64,000 bases of DNA, from contig NZ_BCMZ01000002.1 in NCBI RefSeq assembly GCF_001485535.1, positions 1 to 64,000 of the forward strand, read 5' to 3'. Shown here in pieces: positions 2,774-63,808 of the stretch; the stretch's first letter is position 1, and every line of letters starts with the position of its first letter. A program made the translations under genes and the position numbers. Source of the DNA: Halobacterium sp. CBA1132. Lineage in GTDB: Archaea > Halobacteriota > Halobacteria > Halobacteriales > Halobacteriaceae. A model generated the notes under the pieces. It was not told the origin of the DNA and searched no databases. It saw only the letters and a program-made list of their open reading frames with translations.

Positions 2774-3390
2774 CAGTGCTCCCCCTCCCGGGGCTCGATG
2801 AGGCCGTTGCTTTCTTCGGCGAGTTCCCGGATTACCCGTTCCACGTCAGCCTCTTCGGCAACCGTCCGATGTGCGAGCGGGGCAGGATATGCACGGTCGC
2901 CCTGGCTGCAGAGAACCACCAGCCACTCGTCGCTTCCATCCCCGAGTACGATGTAGTGGTCGCGATCAGCGCGCTGGAAGACCCGCCGGTCCGGGCGAGA
3001 GACGGGTCGCCAGTTCTCGGGGAGCGTCGGTGACGGCCGTCCACCGTCGGGGAGCGCGACGACGTCGTCGGTAAGGGTCGCCATCGCGGCGTCGATCTTC
3101 TCGCCGGTGAGGTGCCAGCACGCCGCTGAACCGTCGCACTCCAGCTGCGAGACCACCTGATTCCGGAACGCGATGTAGTGCTCACGGGCGAACTGCTCAT
3201 CGTCGTAGTAGTCGAGCAGGAGTGCGCACGCGAGCTGGGCGGGCCCGCTACCACTATACCCGATCTCGAAACCACTCGGACTGTGATTGACAATATCGAG
3301 ACTTCGGTCGGGAGTGAGCTCCTCATCGTCAGGAAGGCGGGTAACAACGAGGTCTCCTTGCCGACGCCGGCCGACGTATGCAGTCGTCAT
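2773..3390 (-). CDS. DUF6166-type haloarchaeal protein
   Basis: The product is 205 aa. It opens with YVGRRRQGDLVVTRL and contains the hallmark SLDIVNHSPSGFEIGYSGSG followed by PAQLACALLLDYY, which I recognise as the DUF6166 pattern of haloarchaeal accessory proteins. The molecular function of the family is unknown. The gene overlaps the upstream HNH gene by four bases (ATGA) and the downstream 36-aa gene by one base, so the three form a tight operon. A truncated paralogue lies at 4551-4760. Confidence 0.75.
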   Translation of the reverse strand: MTTAYVGRRRQGDLVVTRLPDDEELTPDRSLDIVNHSPSGFEIGYSGSGPAQLACALLLDYYDDEQFAREHYIAFRNQVVSQLECDGSAACWHLTGEKIDAAMATLTDDVVALPDGGRPSPTLPENWRPVSRPDRRVFQRADRDHYIVLGDGSDEWLVVLCSQGDRAYPAPLAHRTVAEEADVERVIRELAEESNGLIEPREGEH

Positions 3391-3872
3391 TTGAATCGCC
3401 CCCGTTCGTCCCGGTCGCGATCAGAGACGTCCCTCTCGTGGTCGGTTGGTTTAATCTCGGACCCGAAGCCGTGTCGTTCGGCGTGTTTGGAGCGACTGAG
3501 TAGCTCGAGGTTCTCTGGCCTGTTGTCCCACCGGACGCCATTTTTATGATGAACGTGCTTGTTCGCGACAGTGTCGAATCCGCGTTCTGCCACCATTACG
3601 AGTCGGTGAATCCCGACGGAGTCCGTCGTCCCTCGATAGTTCGACGCGCAGATGACGTAGCCACGGTCGGTGAAGACTGCGGGATGCCGTCGACGGTTCG
3701 GGGCTGCCTCCCGTGCGTCCCGACGAGGGATGTCGAATCGCTGCATCCACTTCGAGACCGTCTGCTGTGTACAGCCCAGTTTGTCCGCAATCTTGACCGT
3801 GCTCAACTCCTGTTCCCAGTAGAGTTCGTAGAGGAGCGATTCGTCTCGCCAGGGGTACTCTGAATCGGTCAT
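3387..3872 (-). CDS. HTH-HNH endonuclease
   Basis: The product is 161 aa. Residues about 15-50 form a resolvase/homeodomain-like helix-turn-helix (LSTVKIADKLGCTQQTVSKW). It is followed by an HNH nuclease core with HVHHKNGVRWDNRPENLELL and SKHAERHG. This arrangement is typical of phage or mobile HNH nucleases, in which the HTH positions the nuclease. It is the first gene of the operon with DUF6166 and is preceded by the shared GC-rich leader element at 3895-3923. Mobility or homing is inferred; cleavage specificity cannot be read from the sequence. Confidence 0.85.
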   Translation of the reverse strand: MTDSEYPWRDESLLYELYWEQELSTVKIADKLGCTQQTVSKWMQRFDIPRRDAREAAPNRRRHPAVFTDRGYVICASNYRGTTDSVGIHRLVMVAERGFDTVANKHVHHKNGVRWDNRPENLELLSRSKHAERHGFGSEIKPTDHERDVSDRDRDERGRFK

Positions 3873-3894
3873 AGTTCGGTAAGGGGAGTGAACT

Positions 3895-3923
3895 CCCCCG
3901 CACCCCTCTCGGGGGCAATAAAC
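3895..3923 (-). promoter_or_regulatory. Shared GC-rich leader element, copy 1
   Basis: On the coding strand it reads GTTTATT, then CCCC-GAGA-GGGG, then TGCGGGG, ending 22 nt before the HNH start codon. The CCCC tract can pair with either of the two GGGG tracts. Closely related elements precede genes starting at 4760, 14560, 31361, 45376, 56680 and 63747. Whether it acts as DNA (between a TATA-like box and the transcript start) or as RNA is not known. Confidence 0.55.
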
Positions 3924-4536: not shown

Positions 4537-4554
4537 GTGATACGCTTGTATCAC
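4537..4554. promoter_or_regulatory. Inverted-repeat operator of the RHH/RelE module
   Basis: GTGATAC - GCTT - GTATCAC is a perfect 7-bp inverted repeat immediately upstream of the antitoxin ATG. RHH antitoxins bind such palindromes as dimers to repress their own operon. The motif is seen directly; binding is inferred. Confidence 0.6.
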
Positions 4555-4760
4555 GTAAGTACCTTCGGTTGGTTATTCGGACTGTGGTTGACGAGGTCCA
4601 GACTGCGCTCGAGGGAGAGTCGCCGATGCTCCGAGAGGTTCAGGACGACGGCTTGGCCGTCGACACGGAAGCCGACGTATTCGACTGTGTCTCGGTGAGA
4701 CTGACCGGACGATGCTTCTGGAACCGAGTCCGAACTTGCTACAGGTACATTCCCGTTCAT
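4551..4760 (-). pseudogene. Truncated DUF6166 gene
   Basis: The reading frame keeps the N-terminal part of DUF6166: YVGFRVDGQAVVLNL, then SLERSLDLVNHSP, aligning with YVGRRRQGDLVV and SLDIVNHSP of the gene at 2773-3390. It diverges immediately after NHSP, where only a few unrelated codons remain before the toxin-antitoxin promoter. About three quarters of the domain is missing, so it is a 5' remnant. It retains its own leader element at 4786-4816, implying truncation of a once complete transcription unit by insertion of the RelE module. Confidence 0.7.
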
Positions 4761-4785
4761 TCGTTGCTCGCGGGCGGTTCGGTGA

Positions 4786-4816
4786 CCCCCGCACCCCTCT
4801 CAGGGGTTCAACAAAC
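4786..4816 (-). promoter_or_regulatory. Shared GC-rich leader element, copy 2
   Basis: The coding strand reads TGTTTGTT, then AACCCCTGAGAGGGG and TGCGGGGG, ending 25 nt before the ATG of the truncated DUF6166 frame. The core GAGAGGGGTGCGGGGG matches copy 1 exactly, while the surrounding bases differ. Confidence 0.55.
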
Positions 4817-4878
4817 AGGACGGCGTAGCGTTCGGCAACGTATTTGGCAGTTGCAACGTACTGTCCACATAATTGAGG

Positions 4879-6243: not shown

Positions 6244-6512
6244 GCGGGTTCGATGTGGCTCACTGTCTTGGTCCACTCGTTCGACGAATCGTAGAAGTAC
6301 TTCGTGTTGACATCATCGAACATTGCCGGCGCACACGCGCCGTCACCCTTTACGGCGCAAAACAACATCACAAAACCGATTCTGCGGTCGGCTTACTATG
6401 GTGATGCAACTTAGGTTATATATGTCTGATAGAACAGGGCTGCTAAATCAGGAAGCTAGGTCTTGGACTTCATTAATGGAAAACTGTATTGAGCCAGTCA
6501 ACCCTACCGGGC
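6244..6512. other. Convergent AT-rich spacer with possible gene remnant
   Basis: This gap separates two convergent genes. On the minus strand about 6255-6330 reads FDDVNTKYFYDSSNEWTKTV, which looks protein-like but has no intact frame. From about 6400 the base composition shifts to AT-rich, marking the edge of the island that carries the next gene. No RNA gene is seen. Confidence 0.35.
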
Positions 6513-8354: not shown

Positions 8355-8750
8355 CTAAGCGAGATGAGACACCTCGTCTGGCTCCTCGACATCATCAAAC
8401 CCGCCACAATCGACAGGCTCCCAATCCTCACCTGGCTCCGGACTCCACCAGTCGACCTTGTAGGCGCCCGGTGCGCCGAGGATCTTCACGCGCGCCGACC
8501 CATCAGGTAGGTCGCGGCGCAGTTTCTCGTCGACGTGGAGGTTCCAGGTCGTGGCTGTATCGAAGCAGGCGAGTACGGCTTCCTCGTAGCCGCGTGTCTC
8601 TCGGGATTCCTGGAGTTCGACCTGGGTGTTGCAGTTCTTGCAGAACACCCCCTCGAAGGGGATGTGCGTGAAGACCTCCTGCCCGCAGACGGGACACCAG
8701 AGGAACTCGAACAGTGCCTCACTGTGTCGATCTAGTACTTCGAGGCTCAT
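8355..8750 (-). CDS. Haloarchaeal zinc-finger protein (DUF7567-like)
   Basis: The start is placed at the ATG giving MSLEVLDRHSEALFEFLWCP, although the frame stays open further upstream; the product is 131 aa. Two CxxC pairs (CPVCG and CKNCN, about 20 residues apart) form a zinc ribbon. The rest is acidic, with tryptophan-rich WWSPEPGEDWEPVDCGGF at the end. I recognise it as a conserved small protein of haloarchaeal plasmids, probably the DUF7567 family. No function is known. It is usually grouped with the next two genes, as here. Confidence 0.75.
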   Translation of the reverse strand: MSLEVLDRHSEALFEFLWCPVCGQEVFTHIPFEGVFCKNCNTQVELQESRETRGYEEAVLACFDTATTWNLHVDEKLRRDLPDGSARVKILGAPGAYKVDWWSPEPGEDWEPVDCGGFDDVEEPDEVSHLA

Positions 8751-8797
8751 TGGTTGACTCACCCGGTCGTCCCGGGCCACCACCTCGTACCCGGCCG

Positions 8798-8816
8798 AAA
8801 AACAGCGCCCAGCGCT
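8798..8816 (-). terminator. Hairpin plus T-run
   Basis: On the minus strand AGCGC-TGG-GCGCT is followed by GTTTTT, eight bases after the stop of the 8824-9189 gene. This is a plausible archaeal terminator separating that gene from the downstream 8355-8750 gene. The T-run may alternatively belong to the promoter of the downstream gene. Confidence 0.45.
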
Positions 8817-9192: not shown

Positions 9193-9684
9193 TCAGAAGT
9201 GGACGTCAGCGGGTACGATCCAGAGCTCTTCACTCTCCTCGAGGAGTCGATCCAGCTGTCCACGGTGGCGAATGCCGGTTCCGTGTTCGGTGTACAGGAA
9301 GATCGTCGGGCCATCGTACGCACCGACCTGATGGAAGGCGTGCCGAGCGAGATCTTCGTCGCGCATGATCTCCTCGTCTGAGAGCTCTTCGATGGCCTCT
9401 TTCACCCGGTCGAGATTGCGCTCGAACTCTTCCTTCGTCGCCTCCCAGCCACGCTCGAGGAGGTCTTCGCCGTCATCGGAGTCGACGGGGGCTGCCGTCG
9501 GCAACTCCCCCCATCGTGCCTTCCCCGCAACGGACGTGTCCTCCCCGTCGAAGGTCACATAGTAATCGAAGACGGCGCTGGCGTGTGGGTCCGCGCCGAC
9601 CAGGCGGTCGAACACCGAATTTCCGGTGGCCAGTGCGTCGTCGTGGGTCGATTCTTCTACCAGAGCGTAAATTACCATGTGCAT
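9193..9684 (-). CDS. Conserved acidic haloarchaeal protein
   Basis: The frame is longer, but the internal ATG giving MHMVIYALVEESTHDDALAT is chosen because GAGGTG stands 8 nt upstream as a ribosome-binding site and the earlier residues look spurious. The product is 163 aa, acidic, and ends ESEELWIVPADVHF. It is a conserved haloarchaeal accessory family (possibly DUF7995) of unknown function. The coding-strand region 9735-9775 has a TTTTT tract followed by a GC-rich hairpin containing GGGTGCCGGCG, resembling the shared leader element in layout. Confidence 0.72.
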   Translation of the reverse strand: MHMVIYALVEESTHDDALATGNSVFDRLVGADPHASAVFDYYVTFDGEDTSVAGKARWGELPTAAPVDSDDGEDLLERGWEATKEEFERNLDRVKEAIEELSDEEIMRDEDLARHAFHQVGAYDGPTIFLYTEHGTGIRHRGQLDRLLEESEELWIVPADVHF

Positions 9685-9790
9685 CTCGAACACCTCGAAA
9701 CGCCGACGCACCGGGAGTGATTGCTCGCTCGCTCCAGCTGCGCCGGCACCCATCGCCGGCGCTCGAAAAACCTGATCTAGCGGTCGATTT

Positions 9791-13897: not shown

Positions 13898-14560
13898 TTA
13901 CGGCTTGCCGAGACTCGCTGTCTCGAAGGGTGACTCTCCGGTCGGAATGAGCAGCTCCTGTCGGTCTCCGACTCGCGCGGCCAGCTTCCGTTTCAGGTAC
14001 TGTCTCGCCGTCGACGGTGTGAAGACGCCTTTGTCGAGCATGTCGCCAACGACGTCTTTGAGGGCCGCGAACTGTCCCTGGAGGGTGCCGTCGCCGACCG
14101 GCTCGCCGTCGTACCAACGCACCGTCGCGAGCGCACCGTTCCCGACCGTCTCTCCCTGTTCGACTGTCTCCGAATCGTACTGCAGGCCGAACCACAGCGT
14201 CCGATAGGCGGTCACCTCGAACGTCGTCGACACCACGAAGAACGCCTCGTGGTGGAGGTAGTCGAGGTGGTCAGCGACGATCTCGTCGAGGGTGAGCCCG
14301 GTGGCGCGGGGTTTCGGCTCGACGACCGTCGACGGTCGATCCTCGCCGGCGAGGTAGCCGTCGACGGCATCTGCCTCGAGGCCATCGGCCAGTTCCGCCA
14401 GCAGCTGTTTCGCCCACTTGGAGTCGGTGTCGTCGCCACCGAACGGCGACTCAGCCGAGATTCGGTGCTTGAGCTTCAAGTTCGCTGCGCCCCAATGGCT
14501 GTAGTGGAGCGTGTACTGTCCGTCTGTGCGTTCGTACGCAACGAGTGCGCGGTGTTCCAT
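13898..14560 (-). CDS. DUF6735-type haloarchaeal protein
   Basis: The product is 220 aa and opens with MEHRALVAYERTDGQYTLHY SHWGA, the recognisable start of the DUF6735 family of haloarchaeal plasmid proteins. It contains LDYLHHEAFFVVSTTFEVTA and ends with a basic helix near AARQYLKRKLAARVGDRQE-like sequence. The molecular role of the family is unknown. The shared GC-rich leader element at 14598-14626 precedes it by 37 nt. Confidence 0.75.
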   Translation of the reverse strand: MEHRALVAYERTDGQYTLHYSHWGAANLKLKHRISAESPFGGDDTDSKWAKQLLAELADGLEADAVDGYLAGEDRPSTVVEPKPRATGLTLDEIVADHLDYLHHEAFFVVSTTFEVTAYRTLWFGLQYDSETVEQGETVGNGALATVRWYDGEPVGDGTLQGQFAALKDVVGDMLDKGVFTPSTARQYLKRKLAARVGDRQELLIPTGESPFETASLGKP

Positions 14561-14597
14561 CGAGCAATCACCTCACGGGGCGAGCGCGACTGGATCG

Positions 14598-14626
14598 CCC
14601 CGCACCCCTCCCGGGGGACGAACAAC
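14598..14626 (-). promoter_or_regulatory. Shared GC-rich leader element, copy 3
   Basis: The coding strand reads TTGTTCGT, then CCCCCGGGAGGGG and TGCGGGG, ending 37 nt before the DUF6735 ATG. It matches the core of copies 1, 2 and 4. Confidence 0.55.
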
Positions 14627-14627
14627 G

Positions 14628-14783
14628 CTACTCGTCGATCGGGTCGGGGGAACTGAGGTCCGCGTGGAGGACTTCGCCGTCGCGATCGATGTACCGCTTC
14701 GCCAGTACGGAGAAGCAACACTTCGTGAACCCGGCCGTCTGAGTATCGAGTTCTTGCAAGAACTCTCGCCTTACCCAGATTAG
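14628..14783 (-). pseudogene. C-terminal gene remnant
   Basis: The last ~50 codons of an unidentified gene remain, reading REFLQELDTQTAGFTKCCFS and then RYIDRDGEVLHADLSSP before a TAG. Upstream residues become unprotein-like at the edge of the AT-rich island. The sensible sequence without a credible start suggests a gene truncated by the island insertion. It overlaps the leader region of DUF6735 only marginally. Confidence 0.4.
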
Positions 14784-17680: not shown

Positions 17681-17911
17681 TTAGGAGTCTGCGTGGGCGT
17701 CCGCCCCGGCTCCGTCGCCCGGCCGCGTGAGAAGGCTCACCTCTTCCAGGAGGTCTCTCGCGGTCTCGACTCGCTCTCGATCCGCGTCGGTCAATCGGTC
17801 GACATCGAGTTGGTTGAGATTGCTGAGTACACGATGCATCCGGTAGCCCTGTTTGAACTCTTGCTCCATCGGAAGCGCCTCACCGCTCGCCGGCGCGGAA
17901 AGACTCGCCAT
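17681..17911 (-). CDS. Small hypothetical protein
   Basis: The product is 76 aa from the ATG at 17911. A central helical region (LNQLDVDRLTDADRERVETA RDLLEEV) is flanked by Ala/Gly/Asp-rich tails typical of haloarchaea. No catalytic motif is seen. The promoter region contains the long inverted repeat at 17947-17988. The function is unknown; it is short enough that expression should be confirmed. Confidence 0.5.
   Translation of the reverse strand: MASLSAPASGEALPMEQEFKQGYRMHRVLSNLNQLDVDRLTDADRERVETARDLLEEVSLLTRPGDGAGADAHADS

Positions 17912-18549: not shown

Positions 18550-18560
<11 letters not shown>
18492..18560 (-). ncRNA. Predicted guide RNA (omega/reRNA) region of TnpB
   Basis: In IS605 elements the guide RNA comes from the tnpB 3' end plus the right-end hairpin, and its 5'-most guide is the flanking DNA. 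The hairpin at 18496-18520 and the overlap with the tnpB end fit this. The boundaries are inferred, not seen. Confidence 0.35.
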
Positions 18561-19887
<1,327 letters not shown>

Positions 19888-30434: not shown

Positions 30435-31361
30435 TCAGGCTACATGCTCCTCTAACGTCTCGTGATGCGTCCGAACCGTGGTTGGCGTGACGTTCCCTGT
30501 CTCCGCGACATCGCTTTGCGTCACCCATTGTCCCAGTTCCTGTCCCGCCTTGTAGAGGCAGGCCGCTGCGAACCCGGCCGGATGGACGCCCGTCGTGACG
30601 CCGCGCTCCTCGGCCTGCTCCGCGAGGGTTCGGGCCCGCTGTCGGATCTCGTCCGGACACTCGAGATCCGAGGCGAGGCGCGGCACGAACATGCTGGGGG
30701 AGACGGGTTCAGCGGGGAGGCCCAGCCCTTCGTTCAGCGTTTTGTATGCGTTCGTGACCCGCGACTCCGCGACGCGGGCCATCTCGCTGATGTCGTCCAC
30801 CAACCGCGAGCGGCCGTTGCACCGGCAGGCCCCGTAGACGCTGGCCGCGGCGATGGCCTCGATGGATCTGCCACGAAGCAGATCCTCGGTCTGGGCGCTC
30901 CGGAAGAGTTGGCACGCCTGGTCACGGACCGAATCGGAGAGCTCGAGGGCACTCGCCAACCGACGCACCTCGCCCAGCCCGTGGGCGAGATTCCGTTCCG
31001 CTTTCGACCGCCAGCGACCCCGAGTCTGCTCACGGCGCATCCGTGCGAGTCGCCGTCGCTTCTGCCCGGAGATCTCGTTCCCCTTCGCGTCGGTGCCGCG
31101 ACCGATTTCCGTCGACAGGCCGCGATCGTGGCGGGCCGCAGTGAGTGGGGCGCCCGTTCGCTCGCGCTCCTCGTCGTCGTACGCCCGCCACTCCGGCCCG
31201 TGATCGATGCGCTGTTCGTCGATGACCAGGCCACAGTCCTCGCAGACCGTTTCGACCGCGTTCGTGGTGACCCGGCCGTCGCACTCGGGACACTGATTGG
31301 TGTTCGAGTCCGTCTGGACCTCTTCGTCGAAGCCAGTTTCGTAGATGTCTCTAGTTGCCAT
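30435..31361 (-). CDS. tfb: Transcription factor B
   Basis: The product is 308 aa from MATRDIYETGFDEEVQTDSN. The N-terminal zinc ribbon is CPECDGRVTTNAVETVCEDC G, followed by the B-finger/linker (RAYDDEERERTGAPLTAARH DRGLSTEIG). Two cyclin repeats follow (QACQLFRSAQTEDLLRGRSI EAIAAASVYGACR, and GVTTGVHPAGFAAACLYKAG). It recruits RNA polymerase with TBP. It is about half-identical by eye to the second TFB at 55757-56680. A shared leader element precedes it by 39 nt. Confidence 0.95.
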   Translation of the reverse strand: MATRDIYETGFDEEVQTDSNTNQCPECDGRVTTNAVETVCEDCGLVIDEQRIDHGPEWRAYDDEERERTGAPLTAARHDRGLSTEIGRGTDAKGNEISGQKRRRLARMRREQTRGRWRSKAERNLAHGLGEVRRLASALELSDSVRDQACQLFRSAQTEDLLRGRSIEAIAAASVYGACRCNGRSRLVDDISEMARVAESRVTNAYKTLNEGLGLPAEPVSPSMFVPRLASDLECPDEIRQRARTLAEQAEERGVTTGVHPAGFAAACLYKAGQELGQWVTQSDVAETGNVTPTTVRTHHETLEEHVA

Positions 31362-31400
31362 GGTTTTCACCGTGTTCAGGGAACTCGCCAGTACGGCGAG

Positions 31401-31426
31401 CCCCTCACCCATTGAGGGGTAAATAG
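31401..31426 (-). promoter_or_regulatory. Shared GC-rich leader element, copy 4 (diverged)
   Basis: The coding strand reads GTCTATTTACCCC, TCAAT, then GGGTGAGGGG, ending 39 nt before the TFB start. It has the same T-rich box, CCCC and two G tracts as the other copies, with a changed loop and spacer. Confidence 0.45.
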
Positions 31427-31957
31427 ACTCTACGCGGGACTGAAGTGCCCGCCTCTGGCGTGGAAGAAATTGAGCCTAGCAGTACAGCTAGAATGGGTGC
31501 CCAGAACTTGTATCGACGACCGATGCCGTGCTAGACACCTCCATGAAAATCAATTAATTTGTGACGCTGTCAAGGAACTGTTTCAGGTTCAGGTGTTAAC
31601 TGTCTTCAGTCGGAATACAAGGGCGGTGTGCTCTGAGGTTATCCGTGAATTCCGCTTCGAAGGTGTCATTGAAAGTACTTTTGCGTTTCTTATCGGCGTC
31701 TATGAGACTGGACTCCTCACGAAATCTCACTGGTCCGGAGTGGCGATCCAAATTGAGTGACGATTACTATCGACCAACGCTCAAATCACAATAGAGGAAT
31801 CGGTTACCCACCGGCTCCGTTGGATTCACCTTCCGCTGTTTGCTGTGCTCCCCGCAGCATGGGCCATCTACCGCGTTTGTCGAGCACACTGAATTGCAAG
31901 TACCACTACCGGCCAGATTTCTGGCGCGCTCGTGATAGCTGTTGATAGTTTTGAGTG
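31427..31957. other. Gene-free region between TFB and the ArsR-like regulator
   Basis: Over 500 bp with mixed composition. Plus-strand frames at 31470-31760 are open but lack acidity and recognisable motifs, although a stretch WIHLPLFAVLPAAWAIYRV near 31830 looks like a lost TM helix. I see no intact gene. Confidence 0.35.
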
Positions 31958-44413: not shown

Positions 44414-45376
44414 TCATCGCGTATCGAGTCGGAGCGGAGATGCCCGCTCCCAGAGATGATGGTGCTCGGCGCACACCGTAACGAGGTTATCCAGCCGGTT
44501 GGCTCGCTCGAAATCCACCTCACTCTCGTTGTCGCCGAAGGCGCTTAGCGGTCGGATATGATGTACGTGGAGTCCTCTCGTGAATGTCTCGCGATGCGCC
44601 TCCTCCGTCCACTCACAGCCTGGCGTTTGACAGGTGTAGTTGTCGCGTTCCAGCGTTTTTCGTCGTTGCTCGTCCCAGTTGTCCCCGTACTCGCGCCACT
44701 CGTGGACTGGCTGTTCCTTCCAGTTGTGATGGTCTGGGCCGGCTGGACGGCCGACCGGTTCGTAGCCAGCGGCTCGGATCGCAGCTTGCCAGCCCTCCCA
44801 GCGAGTAAAGTAGGGTCGATGCGAGAACTCCCCATGGTCTTTCATCTCCTGCGCTGTTGGGACCTTTCCTAATTCGTCGGCAAGCCGATGGATCTCTTCG
44901 AGTAATTCCGCATCCGAGATCCGATGCCGATGATTGGGGTCGTAGCCTGCTGCCTCGAGCGCCTCGTTCCAGCTCCCGAGGCGATTCTGTGTGATTGTGA
45001 CCGTGAACTCGCCCTCCGAGCGCATGTCGGCCGCTGTTGGCGGCGTCCCATCCTCCGTTGCGAGCCGTCTGATTTCGTCGAGGAGTGCGTCTTTGGACAC
45101 TCGGTGTTGTTTCACCGGTTCGTATCCCGCTTCCTGGAGTGCCTCTGCCCAGCTGCCGAATCTATTTTTGTACGTTCCAGCTGAATACGCCCCTAGCTCA
45201 TTCATCTCTGTGGCTGTTGGGGAACGGCCCAGCTCGTCTACGAGACGGTCGACCTCGGCCAGTAACTGGGTGTCTGAGATGCGGCGGCTGTGGCTACTGT
45301 TGTGGCCGCCCAGCGCGTCCTTGGTGTCGAAGGACTTTCCACAGACATCGCAGGTTAGCTCATCTTCACCGGCCAT
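44414..45376 (-). CDS. C2H2 zinc finger / homing-associated repeat / HNH endonuclease
   Basis: The start MAGEDELTCDVCGKSFDTKD gives 320 aa. A C2H2 finger (CDVC...HNSSH) comes first. Three ~50-aa homing-endonuclease-associated repeats follow, each ending in a W-x-x-A-x-x-A-A/G-G-Y core (GSWAEALQEAGYEP, GSWNEALEAAGYDP, EGWQAAIRAAGYEP). The HNH domain closes the protein (CEWTEEAHRETFTRGLHVHH, IRPLSAF, LVTVCAEHHHLWER). Repeats bind DNA and the HNH cuts, as in phage homing enzymes. Leader element copy 5 precedes it, and direct repeats flank it, suggesting a mobile unit. Confidence 0.85.
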   Translation of the reverse strand: MAGEDELTCDVCGKSFDTKDALGGHNSSHSRRISDTQLLAEVDRLVDELGRSPTATEMNELGAYSAGTYKNRFGSWAEALQEAGYEPVKQHRVSKDALLDEIRRLATEDGTPPTAADMRSEGEFTVTITQNRLGSWNEALEAAGYDPNHRHRISDAELLEEIHRLADELGKVPTAQEMKDHGEFSHRPYFTRWEGWQAAIRAAGYEPVGRPAGPDHHNWKEQPVHEWREYGDNWDEQRRKTLERDNYTCQTPGCEWTEEAHRETFTRGLHVHHIRPLSAFGDNESEVDFERANRLDNLVTVCAEHHHLWERASPLRLDTR

Positions 45377-45401
45377 CTGTCTTACTCGGAGCGCTCGTAC
45401 G

Positions 45402-45430
45402 CCCACACCCTTCTGGGGGCCCGATCAACT
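45402..45430 (-). promoter_or_regulatory. Shared GC-rich leader element, copy 5 (diverged)
   Basis: The coding strand reads AGTTGATCGGGCCCCC, AGAA, then GGGTGTGGGC, ending 25 nt before the HNH ATG. It keeps the C tract, short loop and GGGTGYGGG tail of the other copies. Confidence 0.45.
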
Positions 45431-45473
45431 CCCCCGAGTCGCACACCCCTTCCCTCGGTTTGCCGGATAAATG

Positions 45474-45565
45474 TTGGATTGGTGAACGAGGTCGTGGCTG
45501 CGCGCGCAGCGAAGCGAGCACGGAGCGGTGGGTGGGGCGGTGGGGTCTGGGTTGGTCCGGCACAC
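45474..45565. repeat. Direct repeat R1, right copy
   Basis: It shares GGTCGTGGCTGCGCGCGCAG CG, AGCGAGCACGGAGCGG and GGTGGGTCTGGGTTGGTC-like sequence with 44245-44336 in the same orientation. The two copies are separated by about 1.2 kb holding only the HNH gene. Confidence 0.7.
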
Positions 45566-45591
45566 AACAAAAAAGAGGGTAGGTCGACTGC

Positions 45592-46458
45592 CTATTCTTC
45601 CCACCACCGACCGCGCTCCGGGAACTCGATCCGCGACCACCCGGTCAGCGCGATTGAGCACCGACCTTCGTACCAGTTCTTGGCTGCTGCCCGGAACCGC
45701 ACTGTCTGACCTTCACGCACCACCGTCTGCCCGGATTTCTCCCAGCAGGTGAACTTGATTTTCCCGCTATCATCCGCTATCAGCCCGACTTGCTGGATGC
45801 TCGTTGAGGAAGGCTCCCAGAGGGTCTCGATTGTTCCTTCGACCGTCACCTCACCGACCGGGACGTCCGGCACGTCCGCGATGGGCACGATTGCCCCCGG
45901 CGCCACCTTCAGTTCCTCGAGGGTCTCCAGCACCGCCTTCGTGACGTCCCGCCCGCGCTGCACCTTCTCGGCCAGCTGTTTCGCGACGACCGCTCTCGAC
46001 CAGCCGCCCTGCACCTCGTCGCTGATCCGCATCGCCTGCTCGTTGACCGCCGCGAGTTCCTCCTGCGTCAGCTTCTCCCGGGGATCCGTGCGCTCCGCCG
46101 GCGCCGGCTCGTCACGACCACACTGCTCGCTGACGACCTCCCGCGTGCGCTGCTCGCGACCGTCCTGCGTTCCCAGCTCGGCCTGGGCACTGATGCGCTC
46201 CAGTTCGGCTTCCCGCGCCCGAATGCGCTCCTCCTGTTCGAGGGTGACACCGTGAATCCGGTCCTCGCTCGTGTCCGCGATCCCGTCCGGGTGGTTCGCA
46301 TCCACCTTCGCCTGCGTCTCCTGCTCGACCGCGGCCTCGAACTCCGGCGTCTCGTCGACGACCGGGAAGCCGTCTTCATCGACCGCCTGACCGCCCGCTT
46401 TCTCGAATGCCTGTTCATCGACCGAAACGACCTTTCCGCTAGCGTTGTTACTAGACAT
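45592..46458 (-). CDS. OB-fold single-strand DNA-binding protein
   Basis: The start MSSNNASGKVVSVDEQAFEK gives 288 aa. The N-terminal half is charged and helical (LEQEERIRAREAELERISAQ). The C-terminal ~95 residues form an OB fold (EVTVEGTIETLWEPSSTSIQ, GLIADDSGKIKFTCWEKSGQ, GQTVRFRAAAKNWYEGRCSI). It resembles haloarchaeal RPA-like DNA-binding proteins found on plasmids, which act in replication or repair. A hairpin leader at 46498-46521 precedes it. Confidence 0.8.
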   Translation of the reverse strand: MSSNNASGKVVSVDEQAFEKAGGQAVDEDGFPVVDETPEFEAAVEQETQAKVDANHPDGIADTSEDRIHGVTLEQEERIRAREAELERISAQAELGTQDGREQRTREVVSEQCGRDEPAPAERTDPREKLTQEELAAVNEQAMRISDEVQGGWSRAVVAKQLAEKVQRGRDVTKAVLETLEELKVAPGAIVPIADVPDVPVGEVTVEGTIETLWEPSSTSIQQVGLIADDSGKIKFTCWEKSGQTVVREGQTVRFRAAAKNWYEGRCSIALTGWSRIEFPERGRWWEE

Positions 46459-46497
46459 TGGAATCACACCAGATTCCGAAGGCGCTCACGCGCCGAC

Positions 46498-54803: not shown

Positions 54804-54866
54804 CACGGATCACTGTTCCGTCACTGTCGGCAGGAGCATGGTGAGTCACGCCGCGCTTACTGTCGC

Positions 54867-54897
54867 GCGCCGCACGCCTCCCAGCGCCGACAGACAC
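54867..54897 (-). promoter_or_regulatory. Detached copy of the 63.7-kb gene leader
   Basis: The region 54836-54897 matches the leader and first bases of the gene at 63457-63747: GGTGAGTCACGC, GCGC, CTGTCGCGCGC and GCACGCCTCCC in the same order. Here the ATG is followed by only nine codons, so the gene itself has been lost. It belongs to the GGGAGGCGTGC variant of the shared leader family. Confidence 0.5.
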
Positions 54898-54947
54898 GCC
54901 ACGCGAACCCGGGGCCTTTACGATGTCTGCGTCGATCAGGTTGGTTG

Positions 54948-55756: not shown

Positions 55757-56680
55757 CTATTCTACGATGGAGAGCAGCCGATCGCGATGGCTCCTGATCG
55801 TCTCGACGGTCACCCCGGCGGCCGCCGCGGCATCGGCTTGCGTCAACGGCGCGTCGTGGACACACGCCGCCATGTACAGGCAGGCGGCGGCGAATCCGGA
55901 TGGATGCACGCCGGTCGTGATGCCGGCGTCGACGGCCTGCACAACGAGCTCCTCTGCCCGGCGTCGAACAACGTCCGTGCAGCCGAGGTCGGACGCGAGT
56001 CGCGGGACGAACTGGTCCAGGCTGACTGGTGGGGTCGGCAGCCCCAACTCTTCGTTGAGCACCGTGTAGGCGTTCTCGACGCGGTTCTGTCCGACCTGCG
56101 CCATCGGCGCCACATCGTCGATGAGCCACGACTCCCCGTTGCACCGGCAGGCGCCGAAGACGCTCGCGGCCGCCATCGCCTCGATGGACCGCCCTTTGAG
56201 GAGTCGTTCGTTCTGTGCCGTCCGGAACAGCTGGCACGCCTGGTCACGTACGGAATCCGCGAGCCCGAGTGCGCTCGCGATCCGCCGGATCTCCGTGAGG
56301 CCGTGCCCGAGGTTGCGCTCCTGTTTGGACCGCCAGCGCGCACGGGACTGCTCGCGACGCATCCGCGCGAGGCGTCGACGCTTCTGGCCCGACAGGTCGG
56401 TACCCGTTGCGTCCTGTCCGCTGCCGATCACCGTCGATAGGCCGCGGTCGTGCCGTGCTGGGGTGAGTGGTGCACCCGTTCGCTTTGCTGTATCGGCGTC
56501 GTCGCGGTGCCACTCCGGTCCACGGTCGATCGACTGCTCGTCGATGATGAGTCCGCAATCTGCACAAACTGTTTCGGCTGAATTCGTTCGCACCGGGCCC
56601 CCACACTCGGGACACGGCTCAGTTGTACCACGCTGGATGTCTTCGTCGAACGCACGCTCGTAGGGTTCACTCGTCGTCAT
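55757..56680 (-). CDS. tfb: Transcription factor B, second copy
   Basis: The start MTTSEPYERAFDEDIQRGTT gives 307 aa. The zinc ribbon is CPECGGPVRTNSAETVCADC G. The linker contains RTGAPLTPARHDRGLSTVIG, and the cyclin repeats include QACQLFRTAQNERLLKGRSI EAMAAASVFGACR and GITTGVHPSGFAAACLYMAA. It closely parallels the TFB at 30435-31361, including leader element and internal layout, so they are paralogues. Divergence in the C-terminal HTH suggests different promoter preference. Confidence 0.95.
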   Translation of the reverse strand: MTTSEPYERAFDEDIQRGTTEPCPECGGPVRTNSAETVCADCGLIIDEQSIDRGPEWHRDDADTAKRTGAPLTPARHDRGLSTVIGSGQDATGTDLSGQKRRRLARMRREQSRARWRSKQERNLGHGLTEIRRIASALGLADSVRDQACQLFRTAQNERLLKGRSIEAMAAASVFGACRCNGESWLIDDVAPMAQVGQNRVENAYTVLNEELGLPTPPVSLDQFVPRLASDLGCTDVVRRRAEELVVQAVDAGITTGVHPSGFAAACLYMAACVHDAPLTQADAAAAAGVTVETIRSHRDRLLSIVE

Positions 56681-56717
56681 CGGTCTCACCTGATTGAGGT
56701 CACGCCGATTCGGCGCG

Positions 56718-56747
56718 CCCCGCACCCCTCTTCGGGGGGTGACAAAC
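56718..56747 (-). promoter_or_regulatory. Shared GC-rich leader element, copy 6
   Basis: The coding strand reads AGTTTGTCACCCCCC, GAAGAGGGG and TGCGGGGC, ending 37 nt before the TFB ATG, the same distance as for DUF6735. Confidence 0.55.
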
Positions 56748-56849
56748 TCGGCGGGAGACGCACGCCCGATCGATCGGTGCCGACGCGTCGAGGACGCCGT
56801 CGACGGTGTAGGCGGGTGAGTAGGGCCAGAACGTAGCTGTCGTCAAGTC

Positions 56850-63118: not shown

Positions 63119-63457
63119 CTATTCGGAGTTTATGTCAGCAACGAGATGCTCTTCGAGGTCGCGCGTCCAGTACGTCGCGGGCCCACCAGGACTACAGCGG
63201 ACACAGAGGTGTACTGTTCCGTCGAGGTGGCCGAGTTCGACGTGGAAGGACGTGAGTGCCGGCAGCGTATCGACGATGCGTCCACAGCCGTCGTAGGCAT
63301 GGTGGTCGAGGTCGTTGGAATCAGGGCGCTCCTGAATAGCGCAGTCGACGCAGATCGGGTGGGTGACCCGTTCGTCTTGCCCCCAGGTGTGGGCCTCGCC
63401 AGTCTCCGTACCGGGCGGCGCGTCGCAAAAAGCGCAGCCGACGAGGGTCTGCTGCAT
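63119..63457 (-). CDS. DUF7558-like zinc-binding protein
   Basis: The ATG start overlaps the upstream stop by one base (TGATG); the product is 112 aa. Cysteine pairs CAFC, CVDC and CVRCS plus GEAHTWGQDERVTHPI define a conserved haloarchaeal zinc family, probably DUF7558. A pseudogene copy lies at 49367-49735. It forms an operon with the 96-aa gene. Confidence 0.78.
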   Translation of the reverse strand: MQQTLVGCAFCDAPPGTETGEAHTWGQDERVTHPICVDCAIQERPDSNDLDHHAYDGCGRIVDTLPALTSFHVELGHLDGTVHLCVRCSPGGPATYWTRDLEEHLVADINSE

Positions 63458-63747
63458 CACTCGCCCTCCGTGTCGGCGTCGCGGCCGGCCGTCCAGCCAC
63501 GGTGGAAGACGGCCAGCTGCGTCGATGAGTCGAACGTGGTGCCGCTCGGCTCGTGAACCAGAACTTGGTCCTCGGGAACCGGAGTGACGACGTCCGCGTC
63601 GACGAGGTCGCTGACCAGGCGCTGGGCCGTCCTGTCGTCGACGTCCGCCGTGTCGACGCTGGTGGCGTCACGGTCCAGGGCGAGCTGTTCTTTCTCGAAC
63701 TGTTCGTAGTCGCGACTCGTGTCGTCGTGCGGATCGAGACCAGGCAT
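63457..63747 (-). CDS. Acidic haloarchaeal plasmid-type protein
   Basis: The product is 96 aa, very acidic, reading MPGLDPHDDTSRDYEQFEKE and TAQRLVSDLVDADVVTPVPE in order. No catalytic residues are evident. It probably belongs to a DUF family of haloarchaeal plasmids. Its leader at 63748-63808 contains a perfect TGCACGCC-GGGA-GGCGTGCA hairpin, a variant of the shared leader element. Confidence 0.68.
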   Translation of the reverse strand: MPGLDPHDDTSRDYEQFEKEQLALDRDATSVDTADVDDRTAQRLVSDLVDADVVTPVPEDQVLVHEPSGTTFDSSTQLAVFHRGWTAGRDADTEGE

Positions 63748-63774
63748 GGTGAGTCACGCAGCGCACGCTGTCGC

Positions 63775-63808
63775 GCGCTGCACGCCTCCCGGCGTGCACG
63801 AGAAACAG
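63775..63808 (-). promoter_or_regulatory. Shared leader element, copy 7 (hairpin variant)
   Basis: The coding strand reads TGTTTCTCG, then TGCACGCC-GGGA-GGCGTGCA, ending 27 nt before the ATG at 63747. The stem is perfect and differs in sequence from the CCCC/GGGG stems of other copies. That would suggest covariation if the structure is what matters. Confidence 0.55.

Follow-up and report, generated by a model that had tools for sequence, protein, structure and literature searches.

Why do genes of unrelated families in this stretch of haloarchaeal DNA carry one and the same short element just ahead of their start codons, and what might such an element do? The window, i.e. the whole stretch of 64,000 nucleotides that was analysed, comprises bases 1-64000 of contig C2 (282,772 bases in length) of Halobacterium sp. 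CBA1132, whose genome of 3.01 Mb is assembled in four contigs. A first-pass annotation of the window had described seven copies and one detached copy of the element, placed them 22-39 nt before start codons and suggested a common operator or an RNA leader switch.

Features of the element and its copies

On the gene strand the element runs from a T-rich box through a C tract, a short loop, GGGG, TGC and GGGG to the start codon. Its anatomy comprises a T-rich, TATA-like box (T-box), arm1, a loop with GGGTG, arm2 and, ahead of the start codon, arm3. Arm2 is common to two mutually exclusive hairpins, A (arm1:arm2) and B (arm2:arm3). All eight copies (3895, 4786, 14598, 31401, 45402, 54867, 56718 and 63775) are present, without exception on the minus strand, and the gaps to the start codons of the seven long open reading frames, in order of position, are 22, 25, 37, 39, 25, 37 and 27 nt, within the annotated range. 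The number of copies had been set too low: relaxed scans and a covariance model added five variants, for a total of about 13. Pfam supports the claim that unrelated genes of plasmid type share the element, with HNH_3 plus helix-turn-helix, DUF6735, TFB, HNH_repeat plus zinc finger and again TFB downstream, next to a DUF6166-like gene and an unknown gene of 96 aa.

The first element (3883-3923, minus strand; model match with E=3e-6) precedes a gene for an HNH_3 endonuclease with helix-turn-helix (3387-3872, minus strand). It consists of the T-box (3917-3922), arm1 (3915-3910, CCCCCG), the loop (3909-3901, agaggggtg), arm2 (3900-3895, CGGGGG) and arm3 (3889-3883, ACTCCCC). The second (4783-4821, minus strand, model match) precedes a short DUF6166-like reading frame (4551-4760), named after annotated relatives, whose homologues of 228 aa bear the same element. 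The third (14594-14632, minus strand, model match) precedes the DUF6735 gene 13898-14560 and is kept before DUF6735 homologues. Two further model matches on the minus strand precede TFB genes: the fourth element (31397-31435, stem CCCCTCA/TGAGGGG) lies before 30435-31361 and the sixth (56714-56752) before 55757-56680. The fifth (45397-45434, minus strand), a weak copy, lies before the HNH_repeat/zinc-finger gene 44414-45376, and the seventh (63770-63808, minus strand, stem TGCACGCC/GGCGTGCA) before the 96-aa gene 63457-63747; the latter has a syntenic counterpart at 9419 on plasmid pJ7-1 of Natrinema. The detached copy (54862-54900, minus strand) is followed by a leader as in the seventh element and by a decayed reading frame. 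These two copies share the GTGACTCACCATG leader, and the reading frame of the detached one (54810-54900) breaks after 9 codons; it is a decayed duplicate. The fifth and seventh elements and the detached copy are outliers that do not appear among the matches of the model in the genome, and two of them belong to the outlier family of its training set.

The five variants likewise lie on the minus strand. The variant at 9738-9776 (T-box 9766-9770; arm1 9762-9755, GCGCCGGC; loop gatgggt; arm2 9747-9740, GCCGGCGC; model match) precedes the gene 9193-9684 of a family whose members start with MHMVIYALVEE (MHM family), and the variant at 8772-8810 (arms CCGGG/CCCGG; model E=0.37) precedes the DUF7567 gene 8355-8750. 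The remaining three are model matches: 6335-6372 (stem GCGCCGT/ACGGCGC), whose putative downstream gene is a 59-aa reading frame; 17872-17910 (stem GCGCC/GGCGC), 5 nt before the 62-aa reading frame 17681-17869 and syntenic with pJ7-1; and 261-299 (stem GCCCT/AGGGC), 7 nt before the 73-aa reading frame 35-256. A gene for an OB-fold, SSB-like protein (45592-46467, minus strand; PDB 2kbn, E=1e-7) has the same strand as the elements; no element was found directly upstream of it. A search of Rfam returned no match above the gathering score in the window, and a literature search on DUF6735 found nothing.

Hairpin A

Upstream regions were gathered by protein homology for the DUF6735, MHM and DUF7567 families, because sequences would otherwise have been chosen by their own pairing. 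DUF6735 members of plasmid type retain the element although the sequence farther upstream diverges; chromosomal relatives are without it, and in many of them a box resembling TATA stands some 22-28 nt ahead of the start codon. In the MHM family a strong hairpin directly follows TTT in 43 of 60 upstream regions (0.3% of shuffles). Its typical stem is GCGCCGGC/GCCGGCGC, and compensated variants, for instance CCAGC/GCTGG, occur. In stem A 91% of cells are paired, versus 22-53% in slid controls, and 8 double changes were counted versus 1.8 in shuffles, none of 500 reaching 8. DUF7567 leaders possess three arms; pairing amounts to about 90% for arm1:arm2 as well as for arm2:arm3, and to no more than 62% in slid versions. 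Hairpin A thus shows covariation in families assembled through protein homology, which bears out the earlier suggestion of selection on structure.

According to the first-pass annotation the CCCC tract could pair with either GGGG. In a mixed alignment (A2) the stem of the C arm with the second G arm beat the shuffles (covariation, 1 of 500), counts that are biased since A2 was selected partly by pairing, so that the homology-sampled families serve as the test. The first G arm showed no excess over shuffles in the same alignment, and the conserved partner is the second G arm, not both equally. RNAalifold found no structure on A2, whose rows vary in loop length and are not in register; for this reason alignments were made family by family. 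Among the genes of one plasmid the arm sequences vary (CCCCG, CCCCTCA, GCGCCGGC, GCGCCGT, CCGGG), and what persists is the pairing together with the GGGTG loop.

Hairpin B

For 65 nonredundant leaders of CCCC type, arm2 plus 30 nt folds better than shuffles (mean z -1.78, p=1e-11); leaders without arm2 and coding-sequence controls gave no folding signal. The fold is better on the sense than on the antisense strand in 62 of 64 cases, by a mean of 4.4 kcal/mol, an advantage due to G.U pairs. In the smaller DUF7567 set alone the sense advantage is not significant in the energy test; G.U cells there number 37 versus 4 for A.C. Hairpin B thus acts in mRNA, or in sense single strands. The pairing of arm3 with the second G arm had gone unnoticed in the first-pass annotation, as had the linkage to conjugation and the strand polarity reported below.

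Distribution in the genome and in the order

A strict pattern gave four exact matches in the genome, all of them within the window, and none in the reversed control. Of 195 genomes of the order, 82 contain the element core, with hundreds of matches as compared with about a dozen in the reversed control. A scan of named genomes located it in many genera of Halobacteria, often on plasmids; the few matches beyond Halobacteria look unrelated. Two scans of IMG/VR for a viral origin delivered one doubtful match each.

The covariance model, trained on 33 copies, was run on the whole genome of the strain. Of its 16 best matches (E<0.4), 15 belong to C2 or to C3, a contig of 121 kb, and every one of these has minus-strand orientation; the only chromosomal match in this range has E=0.26; there are no convincing chromosomal copies. 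Matches on C2 and C3 outside the window, which were not part of the training set, precede an ArdC-like gene on C2 (C2:279991) and three genes of C3, namely ArdC-like (C3:95796), TFB and DUF6166-like; a weaker match on C3 (E=7) precedes a DUF7567 gene. One upstream element thus stands before ArdC-like, TFB, DUF6166-like and DUF7567 genes, as in the establishment regulons of the p576/pLS20 type, and the same holds for pJ7-1. The first genes after the core fall into about a dozen multi-member families, including DUF6166-like, DUF6735, an unknown family of 126 aa, TFB, ArdC-like (anti-restriction; by an ArdcN domain just below the Pfam cut-off), HNH_3 plus helix-turn-helix, SWIM zinc finger and DUF6610; variant stems precede the DUF7567 and MHM family genes.

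Some matches, in Planctomycetota 354-166 and similar records (L134 and others), were rejected as an unrelated repeat with a different flank (gtttctggcaCCCC). A repeat with the flank gtttctggcaCCCCTGCCGGGGTGCGGGG recurs in contigs of Planctomycetota MAGs and similar records (L134, L147, L151, L161, L181, L199, L203, L210, L214 and L217); it fits the search pattern and is not the haloarchaeal element.

Plasmid and conjugation context

Plasmid pJ7-1 carries about 10 copies of the element on one strand, in a block that is syntenic with the window and interleaved with defence genes on the opposite strand. It encodes a TrbL/VirB6 protein (PF19590, 2e-134) as well as a HerA-like ATPase (weak match), a primase, ArdC and SRAP. 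At 45130-46070 of this plasmid (NC_018225.1), repeats with a CACTCTGGACGAGGGGTGTGTGG-like sequence adjoin orc1/cdc6; they are probably replication-origin repeats.

Neighbouring core matches on a contig agree in strand in 51 cases versus 2, and in 26 versus 2 when more than 5 kb apart. The element and TrbL_3 occur together in 66 genomes, the element alone in 16, TrbL_3 alone in 22 and neither in 91 (p=7e-18, uncorrected for phylogeny). Both have the same strand on 37 contigs, opposite strands on 1 and mixed strands on 4, counts that are uncorrected for shared ancestry. The background bias of genes to one strand, about 65-70% on pJ7-1 and in the window, does not account for this co-orientation. 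The strain's own genome gave no match to TrbL_3, and the plasmid of the window may therefore be derelict, or its type IV secretion system (T4SS) may have diverged.

Proposed function

Over the 100 nt upstream no AT-rich box other than the T-box was found. The T-box stays unpaired in DNA folds of the element, and the distance from its first T to the start of arm2 is mostly 21-24 nt. In halovirus HF2 mapped TATA boxes start at about -26 and, in other cases, at -24 or -28 (PMC8707807). From this similar spacing the T-box would be a TATA box, and a start of transcription is predicted inside or next to arm2.

We lean towards regarding the element as the common core-promoter and 5'-leader module of an establishment (leading-region) regulon in haloarchaeal conjugative-type plasmids. 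The presence of ArdC, SSB-like, TFB and HNH genes, the sharing of one upstream sequence by dispersed single genes and the T4SS polarity together match the establishment or leading-region regulons of bacteria, although some bearers, such as a TnpB-like transposase, are not obvious establishment genes. In such a module the T-rich box would serve as TATA box, palindrome A (arm1, GGGTG loop, arm2) would extend from there to the start of transcription, and arm2, in or beside which the transcript would begin, would provide the 5' side of hairpin B, which would open the mRNA just ahead of the start codon. Palindrome A would act at the DNA level, most likely holding the promoters in a silent or poised state as long as the plasmid is resident and double-stranded and allowing them to fire on its entry into a cell, and B may protect or gate the mRNA. 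A regulator presumably takes part, and possible ways in which A is read are structure-dependent silencing, action of the entering strand, an RNA switch or an ordinary repressor.

Should transcription instead start upstream of arm1, A and B would be alternative folds of one leader, chosen by a ligand, a protein or the ribosome as in attenuators. Their mutual exclusion through arm2, the high pairing of both in DUF7567 and the clear RNA character of B fit such a switch, and one-sided changes of A in the MHM family are mostly G.T and not A.C (13 versus 3). Against it, A has no sense-strand excess over expectation in the pooled fold test, the mismatch-type strand test gave 20 versus 15 in the mixed set, no promoter-like AT peak lies upstream of the T-box, and the T-box itself sits at about TATA distance from arm2. 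The leader switch of the first-pass annotation thus survives as a leader role for arm2:arm3, which folds in the sense strand; alternation of A and B is possible and not favoured, because the G.U signature that the pooled energy test gave for B is missing in A, whose position seems to be upstream of the transcript start. We consider a switch of this kind unlikely.

Another reading takes the palindromes as strand-of-entry promoter hairpins. Plasmids would arrive as one defined strand, in which alone A forms and starts transcription or complementary-strand priming, as Frpo/ssi does, so switching on defence-evasion and transcription-factor genes. The shared direction of significant copies on each contig, which is also that of TrbL, is in line with it, as are a gene content like that of bacterial leading regions (ArdC, SSB-like, SRAP) and the covariation of A as a hairpin rather than as a fixed binding sequence. 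Its T-box has no paired partner, however, whereas the promoter boxes of Frpo become double-stranded in the fold, and the strand-sensed mismatches in A favour the coding strand, and this strand could not serve as the template. Neither a relaxase nor an oriT was identified; for archaeal conjugation in general the literature knows no relaxase and has not settled in which form DNA is transferred (PMC9905601, PMC12857230). The entry of a defined strand is a quite doubtful explanation; if true, it would provide sequence evidence for single-stranded DNA delivery of fixed polarity in archaeal conjugation, and an independent archaeal counterpart of Frpo.

That a single repressor binds, ahead of each gene of the regulon, the interrupted palindrome lying between TATA box and start appears improbable. 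Archaeal repressors typically sit between the TATA box and the start, the position that the palindrome would hold. The GGGTG motif is conserved, and p576 has shared Reg operators before its establishment genes (PMC8708921). The arms, however, differ among the genes of one plasmid, with compensatory changes, and the spacer between them varies. A common operator in the usual sense, as first suggested, lacks support because the stem sequence is not constant among the genes of one plasmid, whereas the pairing and the GGGTG loop stay.

Two further candidates were rejected: an intrinsic terminator, as the T run lies upstream of the hairpin on the gene strand and thus on the wrong side, and an integron attC site, as the elements are scattered among genes of the opposite strand and each precedes a single gene, within a narrow range of distances to the start codon.

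Comparison with known systems and significance

Like Frpo/ssi of F-like plasmids (PMC11541004), the element is repeated before genes of a putative leading region, forms hairpins, keeps to one strand and lies near anti-restriction and SSB genes. It differs in being archaeal, with a palindrome of about 20 nt, an unpaired T-box in place of double-stranded promoter boxes made by the fold, and an mRNA hairpin B that overlaps the palindrome; no sequence relation was seen. With the p576/pLS20 establishment regulons (EGeRS, Reg operators; PMC8708921) it shares a conserved sequence that stands upstream of ardC and of numerous variable genes within a single region of the plasmid. There, this is a fixed operator or a region of 420-750 bp, whereas here a covarying stem and an RNA hairpin precede many single genes across Halobacteria. 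The element itself is thus distinct from Frpo, EGeRS and Reg operators. The intergenic repeat promoters of halovirus HF2 (PMC8707807) are likewise haloarchaeal repeated promoters with a TATA box at about -26, but they are sequence repeats of one virus before other genes, and the part of that report considered here describes no covarying palindrome or leader hairpin.

The element offers a searchable cis-marker of likely establishment genes of such plasmids across Halobacteria, gives their strand polarity and points to candidate anti-defence genes (DUF6735, DUF6166, DUF6610, DUF7567 and the MHM family). It would represent a compact promoter, in which a single arm serves both a DNA palindrome and an mRNA hairpin, and a testable handle on the entry and establishment of archaeal conjugative plasmids.

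Additional observations

Genes for TnpB/OrfB-type transposases occur near elements in the window (18550-19887) and in L200, where the transposase gene itself bears the element. DUF6166-like genes (window 4551-4760; G000:C3:105402; L048, L132 and L209) often stop at about 69 codons, and homologues on other plasmids reach about 228 aa, a recurrent truncation or frameshift at one and the same point. At 31401-31412 and 9753 of the window an ATG within the hairpin loop (CAATGGGTG, GATGGGTG) is in frame with the downstream gene, so that automatic calls of the reading frame begin inside the hairpin; a translated leader is possible at both sites.
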